A stretch of 64,000 nt of DNA, from NCBI RefSeq assembly GCF_024300825.1, contig NZ_CP101323.1:3410001-3474000 (forward strand), read 5' to 3'. This document shows positions 13,321 through 14,776 of the stretch, piece after piece. The notes beneath the pieces are model-generated. The model had not been told where the DNA came from and did not search any database. It saw nothing but the letters and a program-made list of their open reading frames with translations. Made by a program: the position numbers and the translations under genes. This DNA is from Natronomonas gomsonensis. GTDB taxonomy: Archaea > Halobacteriota > Halobacteria > Halobacteriales > Haloarculaceae. Within the stretch, counting starts at the first letter, position 1; each line of letters opens with the position of its first letter.

Positions 13321-13530
13321 ATGAGCGTCGCTGGACTCTGTGAAATCTGTGAGTCCGAGACAGTCGAGGACGGCTGTGACCGCTGTGGCCGATTGGTGTG
13401 TGCCAACCACTACGACCGGACCTCCGGGCTGTGTACCGACTGTCTCGCCGAACTGGGCGACCAACCGTCAGACGACTCCGACCGGGAGGAACGGGAGTAC
13501 CCCGACGGCGTCGACGAGTATCGGTTCTAA
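13321..13530 (+). CDS. small zinc-binding Cys-rich protein
   Basis: 69 residues. Three CxxC pairs (CEIC, CDRC, CTDC) plus CANH form a B-box/HIT-like treble cross-brace: GLCEICESETVEDGCDRCGR then VCANHYDRTSGLCTDC. Eight potential ligands suggest two zinc ions. The C-terminal 25 residues are acidic and probably disordered. Likely a protein- or RNA-interaction module; no enzyme signature. It starts 64 bp from the divergent J-domain gene. Confidence 0.82.
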   Translation: MSVAGLCEICESETVEDGCDRCGRLVCANHYDRTSGLCTDCLAELGDQPSDDSDREEREYPDGVDEYRF

Positions 13531-13966
13531 TTTTCACACGCGAGGCGCGGCCTTTCGAACGACCCCGCGGGAAAAATGGCGACTCGGGAGCGTTATTCGA
13601 ACGCCTCCTCGGCGGATGCTGGTAGAAGATAACCCGTTCGTTTCATCCCACGATAACGGCAGAGCGTTACGTCTGACTGCAAACCTGACGCTCTCGGTTC
13701 GGTGCCTCAAGGTATGGTATAGCGGTCGCTCCTCGGTATTAGAGTGACGGGGTAGGTCAGCCAGCGGCAACTACACGTGGAAACCACGCGAATTGAAAGG
13801 TGGCTGTCTGACCGTGCCGTCTGTCTTCTTCTCTCTGCTACCGCTACAAAACCCCTCCGGTACCTACCGGGTGCGTGTCGTTCGAGGAACTCAGTCTGAG
13901 CGCGACGACTTCTGTACCGACCGATTGGTGAATCTGCCGACCAGAAACCCCCATCCGTGACGCCGG
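13531..13966. other. 436-bp gap between convergent genes
   Basis: Both flanking genes end into this gap, so it is not a promoter region for either. I see no convincing protein-coding frame. Base composition is less GC-rich than the genes. It contains the structured candidate RNA at 13746-13821 and a short perfect hairpin CCGGTACCTACCGG (13859-13872 approximately). Confidence 0.6.
13746..13821 (+). ncRNA. candidate structured non-coding RNA
   Basis: Nested complementary arms can form one long imperfect hairpin. GACGG (13746-13750) pairs with CCGTC (13817-13821). GGTCAG (13755-13760) pairs with CTGACC (13808-13813). CAGC (13762-13765) pairs with GCTG (13803-13806). An inner helix CGTGG-AAA-CCACG lies at 13776-13788. 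Asymmetric internal loops separate the inner and outer helices, in the style of a guide or regulatory RNA. A TATA-like GGTATGGTATAG lies about 30 bp upstream. It matches no tRNA, SRP RNA or RNase P landmark that I recognise. The strand is assumed from the TATA-like element. Confidence 0.4.
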
Positions 13967-14776
13967 TTATCGGTATTGATTCAGTCGCTTTTTCAGTCGC
14001 TTCGCGGCGTTGCCCGCCGCTCGAAAGTACGCCGTTTCGTCGTCGGCACCCTCCCCCGCGAAGATGATGCCGCGCGAGGAGTTGACGAGGCCGACGCCGT
14101 CGGCGAGGCCGTATTCGACGGCGGCCTCGGCGTCGCCGCCCTGTGCGCCGACGCCGGGGACGAGGAAGGGCAAATCGACCAACTCCCGGACGGATTCGAG
14201 TTCCTCGGGCGCGGTCGCGCCGACGACCAAGCCGACGTTGTCGTTGTCGTTCCACTCGGCACAGCGTTGGGCGACGTATTCGTACAGCGATTTACCGTTG
14301 CCGACTTCGAGGTTCTGGAAGTCCGCGCCGCCGCTGTTGGAGGTCCGACACAGGACGATGACGCCCTTCTCGGGTTTCGAGAGGTACGGTTCGAGGGTGT
14401 CGCGGCCCATGTAGGGGTTGACGGTCATCGCGTCGGCACCGAGGCCGTCGTCGTCCAGCAGGTCGGCGTACTGCCGGGCGGTGTTGCCGATGTCGCCGCG
14501 TTTGGCGTCCAGGAGGACGGGAACGCCCTTGCCGTGGGCGTAGGCGATGGTCTCCTCCAGCGCCCGCCAGCCGTCGGCGTCCTCGTAGAAGGCGGCGTTG
14601 GGCTTGTAGCAGGCGGCGTGTTCGTGGGTGGCGTCGATGATTCGGCGGTTGAACGCCCACCGCGGGAGATCCGAATCGAGGAACTCTGGCAGGCGGTCGG
14701 GGTCGGGGTCGAGACCGACCGAGACGACGCTGTTGGTCGACTCGATGCGCGCGGCGAGGTCGTCGAAGAAGCTCAT
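13967..14776 (-). CDS. pyrF: orotidine 5'-phosphate decarboxylase
   Basis: 269 residues from MSFFDDLAARIE at 14776. It catalyses the last step of UMP synthesis. The catalytic Lys/Asp motif LLDAKRGDIGNTARQYA is intact, as are CYKPNAAFYE and VPGVGAQGGDAEAA (phosphate loop). The length and the DAKRGDIG form match the longer PyrF subfamily found in actinobacteria and haloarchaea. An in-frame start 27 bp upstream is less likely. Divergent from the HAD hydrolase gene, 71 bp apart. Confidence 0.95.
   Translation of the reverse strand: MSFFDDLAARIESTNSVVSVGLDPDPDRLPEFLDSDLPRWAFNRRIIDATHEHAACYKPNAAFYEDADGWRALEETIAYAHGKGVPVLLDAKRGDIGNTARQYADLLDDDGLGADAMTVNPYMGRDTLEPYLSKPEKGVIVLCRTSNSGGADFQNLEVGNGKSLYEYVAQRCAEWNDNDNVGLVVGATAPEELESVRELVDLPFLVPGVGAQGGDAEAAVEYGLADGVGLVNSSRGIIFAGEGADDETAYFRAAGNAAKRLKKRLNQYR

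Follow-up and report, generated by a model that had tools for sequence, protein, structure and literature searches.

What is encoded in the gap between a zinc-finger gene and pyrF in Natronomonas gomsonensis? The window analysed here, a 64,000-nucleotide stretch of contig NZ_CP101323.1 (assembly GCF_024300825.1, positions 3,410,001 to 3,474,000), contains an intergenic region bounded by a 69-aa zinc-finger ORF on the plus strand (13321–13530) and by pyrF on the minus strand (13967–14773), which bears out the convergent arrangement described in a first-pass annotation of this DNA. That annotation also pointed to four nested helices at 13746–13821 and proposed that they belong to a novel non-coding RNA, with a TATA-like element on the plus strand (~13712–13720) as its promoter. 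We found the helices where they had been placed. On the plus strand, the hairpin folds with −33.4 kcal/mol (z −3.0; 2 of 200 shuffles were equally good). The minus strand of 13716–13822 folds better, with −38.5 kcal/mol and a z of −3.6 that none of 200 shuffles equalled.

Are these helices maintained in relatives? In an alignment of 97 distinct homologues, which was fitted to the model and so leans towards a structure originally derived by folding the window sequence itself, 94.5% of cells were paired and 18 of the 26 base pairs had changed on both sides. Two-sided compensatory cells numbered 157 in these 97 sequences versus 46 in shuffles; none of 500 shuffles scored as high and slid controls were all far lower. 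An earlier set of 32 sequences gave the same covariation result. The compensatory substitutions that had been proposed as a check of the hairpin are thus present, and because they keep the helices in 97 distinct homologues, the helices are not a product of chance. It is close to certain that the locus is a conserved RNA gene. The sequence itself is also conserved in places: (i) the almost invariant stretches are GACGGCACGG, the loop ACCUUUC, CCUA..CCGUC and the tail GAGC followed by a later GC; (ii) the conserved 3′ tail reads UCUCUA...GAGCGACNGC; and (iii) the internal loop is almost invariant on its 5′ side and variable on its 3′ side.

Which strand carries the gene? Read on the minus strand, the paired cells include 215 G-U or U-G combinations versus 39 A-C or C-A combinations, and these counts would swap if the alignment were read on the plus strand, which argues for a gene on the minus strand. 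A conserved box of the form CCGGAGG-n-GTTTTRTA lies upstream on that same strand, and the bases between the box and the RNA mostly vary. The TATA-like part of the box is centred at the usual place of an archaeal TATA box. For haloarchaea, the published sequences of the TATA box and the BRE are TTWT and CGAAA, respectively (PMC4983044). Together, the G-U excess and the upstream box place the gene from ~13822 down to at least 13716. The plus-strand TATA-like element does not recur as such among homologues, and the conserved box lies on the other side of the hairpin. The original proposal of a novel RNA thus holds as regards a covarying RNA gene with no counterpart in Rfam, and has to be turned over as regards its strand and its promoter. 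Coordinates are collected in Table 1.

Table 1. Features of the RNA locus, in window coordinates.
Feature	Positions	Strand	Basis
Gap carrying the RNA gene	13531–13966		Intergenic, convergent
RNA gene, covariance-model part, ~107 nt, predicted 5′ end 13822	13716–13822	−	Covariance models; strand from G-U versus A-C counts
Long irregular hairpin: basal GACGG/CCGUC; middle GGUCAG-CAGC/GCUG-CUGACC; apical around GUGG-UUU-CCAC	13746–13821	−	Fold and covariation
ACCUUUC, internal loop, almost invariant in 97 sequences	13795–13801	−	Alignment
Conserved tail motif GAGCGACNGC, 3′ of hairpin	13722–13731	−	Alignment
TATA-like box TTTTGTAG, centre ~26 nt upstream of RNA start	13844–13851	−	Conserved upstream sequence
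CCGGAGG at BRE position	13854–13860	−	In 86 of 97 homologues, CGGAG starts 35–37 nt ahead of the RNA
Second downstream block CCGAACCGAGAGCG, common to about one fifth of homologues	13689–13702	−	Homologue comparison

In part of the family, the RNA may extend as far as the second downstream block. This block mostly lies 13–15 nt past the end of the model and was found with at most three changes at 21 of 99 loci, in several families, versus about one expected in shuffles (it also occurs at loci L041–L044, L065, L104, L105, L107 and L125). Because about one fifth of homologues share this block, the predicted transcript may reach ~135 nt in some species. We also considered a regulon sharing the promoter box. 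When one mismatch was allowed, the box was found in the N. gomsonensis genome at this RNA alone, and three other genomes each had a single extra one-mismatch match; the regulon was rejected.

How widespread is the RNA? BLAST detected it in 9 of 60 genomes, N. gomsonensis included. A covariance model built from nine sequences picked up the RNA in 37 of 146 genomes from the family, and a second model did so in 121 of the 392 genomes sampled from the order, in 34 of 95 genera and six families. In a sample of 197 genomes from the phylum, every match fell within the order. Within the order, occurrence is all-or-none: positive genomes score 40–122 bits, and when 39 match-free genomes were screened a second time under less strict filters, no score exceeded 27.3 bits. 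The RNA is present in each of the 15 Haloferax genomes searched. No match came from viral contigs or phages, and the only two plasmid matches were on large haloarchaeal plasmids.

Does the RNA belong to a known class? Rfam 15 gave no match in the window at gathering score and none locally at E ≤ 5, and ARAGORN found no tRNA. Among 15 homologous loci, Rfam again gave no match at the RNA, even at relaxed thresholds; the same search did pick up an RNase P RNA close to one of these loci. In one genome (G138, locus L032), the RNA gene (1501–1607) lies ~175 bp from an archaeal RNase P RNA gene (901–1326). Along with the strong covariation, these results agree with the first-pass view that the hairpin is not tRNA, 7S RNA or RNase P RNA. 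When stretches of the sequence were used to search the literature, no haloarchaeal paper matched. The RNA is a family absent from Rfam, and a literature search that fell short of most subscription journals returned no report of it as a defined, covarying, horizontally transferred family.

The family could nevertheless include a small RNA that has been seen and left unexplained in Haloferax volcanii, and two published transcripts come into question. H225.2R (96 nt) was reported from 19 further haloarchaeal genomes, and cells deleted for it grow more slowly at 1.2 M NaCl (PMC3956466); sRNA_61 (111 nt) is abundant and ribosome-associated (PMC12482152). Both are close in size to the RNA described here, and because the RNA is present in every Haloferax genome searched, H. 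volcanii very probably carries it as well. In contrast, neither structure nor transfer is reported in the paper on H225.2R, which we compared by its published description (PMC3956466). We regard identity with one of these transcripts, judged by size and distribution, as a real but minority possibility. Were it correct, the transcript would have been seen before, but not recognised as a family with the structure and spread described here.

The RNA occurs as a rule once per genome, with two or three copies in four of the 392 genomes of the order sample. In G347, two copies (L108 and L109) are 82% similar over 426 bp; the similarity runs far beyond the RNA on its 3′ side and includes no obvious shared ORF. 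In G015, the two apparent copies (L002 and L010) lie in an identical 3-kb stretch found on two contigs, which probably reflects overlapping assembly and not a second gene.

Does the gene stay in place? N. gomsonensis and three congeners (G001, G015 and G002) carry near-identical copies (91–97%) beside different adjoining genes. In G001, the gap between pyrF and the zinc-finger gene is ~34 bp long and lacks the RNA gene, forming an empty site; reciprocally, at the place where G001 bears the RNA, N. gomsonensis, G015 and G002 have a gap of just 42–57 bp. Movement also appears to cross family borders. Compared from promoter to tail, the copies nearest to that of the window outside its genus are those of Halobellus captivus and H. 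rufus, members of a different family (92% identity); identity is 87% with the copy of Haladaptatus litoreus, and only 83% with the best match among the other genera of the family to which N. gomsonensis belongs. Of 99 copies, just 24 have their closest counterpart from another genus within their own family, and a tree of the element, weak since it rests on ~147 nt, requires a minimum of 28 family changes. The closest copies in other families and the element tree strongly suggest that the RNA gene has been transferred between families.

Such relocation raises the question of whether the hairpin might matter as DNA, within a small MITE-like mobile element. The different sites in congeners, the transfer between families and the two copies sharing 426 bp in one genome would all fit such an element. 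However, the gene is almost always single in a genome, its promoter-like box stands at a fixed distance, and G-U combinations far outnumber A-C mismatches, an excess explained only by a transcribed strand. In addition, no clean target duplication was seen where occupied and empty sites were compared, and no terminal repeats were noticed. A MITE-like element is thus very improbable. Transposon debris, which the first-pass annotation had raised against its own proposal, likewise does not fit a sequence that is mostly single-copy and unaccompanied by duplication at the compared sites.

We then consider a stretch of RNA acting in cis on an adjoining gene, as a 3′ UTR hairpin, a leader or a terminator. 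Its position in an intergenic gap would suit such a role, but the RNA has its own promoter-like box and every orientation of neighbours occurs: by home-made gene calls, flanking genes are convergent in 36 cases, co-directional in 55 and divergent in 7 (n = 98), versus ~21%, 53% and 25% for ordinary gaps at the same loci. No neighbour gene was constant over 99 loci of 20 kb, except within groups of close relatives. For instance, in several Natrinema (L045, L046, L119 and L121) the RNA adjoins sufB/sufD-like genes and a DtxR-like regulator (named by eye), and other lineages differ. We give a cis element hardly any credence. Equally slight is the chance of an H/ACA or C/D modification guide of unusual form, an idea also floated in the first-pass annotation: the RNA resembles archaeal H/ACA guides as a single hairpin with a large internal loop that is constant on one side, but an ANA box within 6 nt 3′ of the basal helix occurs in only 2 of 97 sequences, the C box (RUGAUGA), which a C/D guide would have along with a D box (CUGA), in none of 97 and a recognisable K-turn is lacking, the loop varies on its 3′ side although a guide pocket would be expected to draw on both strands, and patchy occurrence would be odd for an rRNA guide.

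What, then, might the RNA do? Its own promoter-like box, its intergenic position and its lack of coding potential, along with a structure kept by compensatory changes, are the features of an archaeal trans-acting sRNA, and the RNA may, as first proposed, be a regulatory small RNA. In the reading that we favour, the minus strand would hold a stand-alone haloarchaeal small RNA gene, transcribed from its own BRE/TATA-like promoter into an RNA of ~100–110 nt, possibly up to ~135 nt, which would form one long irregular hairpin with the ACCUUUC internal loop and the conserved 3′ tail. Since only a few hundred base pairs move with the gene, and neither a constant neighbour nor a protein gene is among them, we infer, solely from this absence of linked genes, that its partner is not co-transferred and is already present in each recipient. 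The partner would be something that every haloarchaeon has, such as core mRNAs, the ribosome, RNA polymerase, or an RNA-binding protein (Lsm or another). The conserved hairpin may dock on such machinery, with the exposed loop and tail making contacts, in a logic comparable to that of the ribosome-associated sRNAs of H. volcanii. Overall, we think it rather probable that this structured RNA stands alone, has spread horizontally and acts in trans through machinery universal in haloarchaea. A bolder version, in which a mobile, structured, one-per-genome RNA works in new hosts by engaging universal machinery, without a co-transferred protein, and so represents a class of archaeal RNA regulators of its own instead of a further antisense sRNA, is offered as a speculation that may well prove wrong.

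We also considered that the ACCUUUC loop acts just before start codons. In the N. gomsonensis genome, its complement GAAAGGT preceded ATG 22 times versus 17 for a reversed control, which is not convincing and leaves this idea without clear support. One GAAAGGT match is kept throughout the genus, but it seems to be part of the coding sequence of a TusA-like protein.

The RNA keeps a strict structure and a promoter-like box across six families, yet it is missing from many close relatives and relocates between congeners. It is thus a rare archaeal RNA open to comparative genetics, and the genetically tractable H. volcanii could serve for direct tests of its partner and function.

How does the RNA compare with known haloarchaeal sRNAs? 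Conservation of archaeal sRNAs is described as poor: of 27 H. volcanii sRNAs tested, 22 were limited to that species (PMC3956466). The H. volcanii rancRNA_s194 is an intergenic, structured, ribosome-binding RNA produced as its own transcript of ~97 nt, whose start is preceded at ~28 nt by a TATA box; it is reported in eight other Haloferax species only and represses cstA, its loop being said to pair over 8 nt at cstA +61 to +68 (PMC6104027). The present RNA would be similar as an intergenic archaeal RNA with its own upstream TATA-like box, and ribosome binding matches the logic proposed above. Unlike rancRNA_s194, its longest Watson-Crick match to that cstA site is only 4–5 nt in four Haloferax genomes (close relatives, not H. 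volcanii itself). With such short pairing and no CstA in the N. gomsonensis genome, CstA was rejected as a shared target. Within the genus of the window, the four carriers of the RNA (G000, the window's genome, with G001, G002 and G015) all lack CstA and six of seven tested non-carriers (which include G003, G008 and G016–G019) have it; in Haloferax and Natrinema, the RNA and CstA occur together. Lastly, SHOxi of H. volcanii, a 254-nt RNA from plasmid pHV3 that is induced by oxidative stress and destabilises malic enzyme mRNA (described in PMC12482152), differs from the present RNA in size and replicon, but the two would be alike as stand-alone haloarchaeal regulatory sRNAs.
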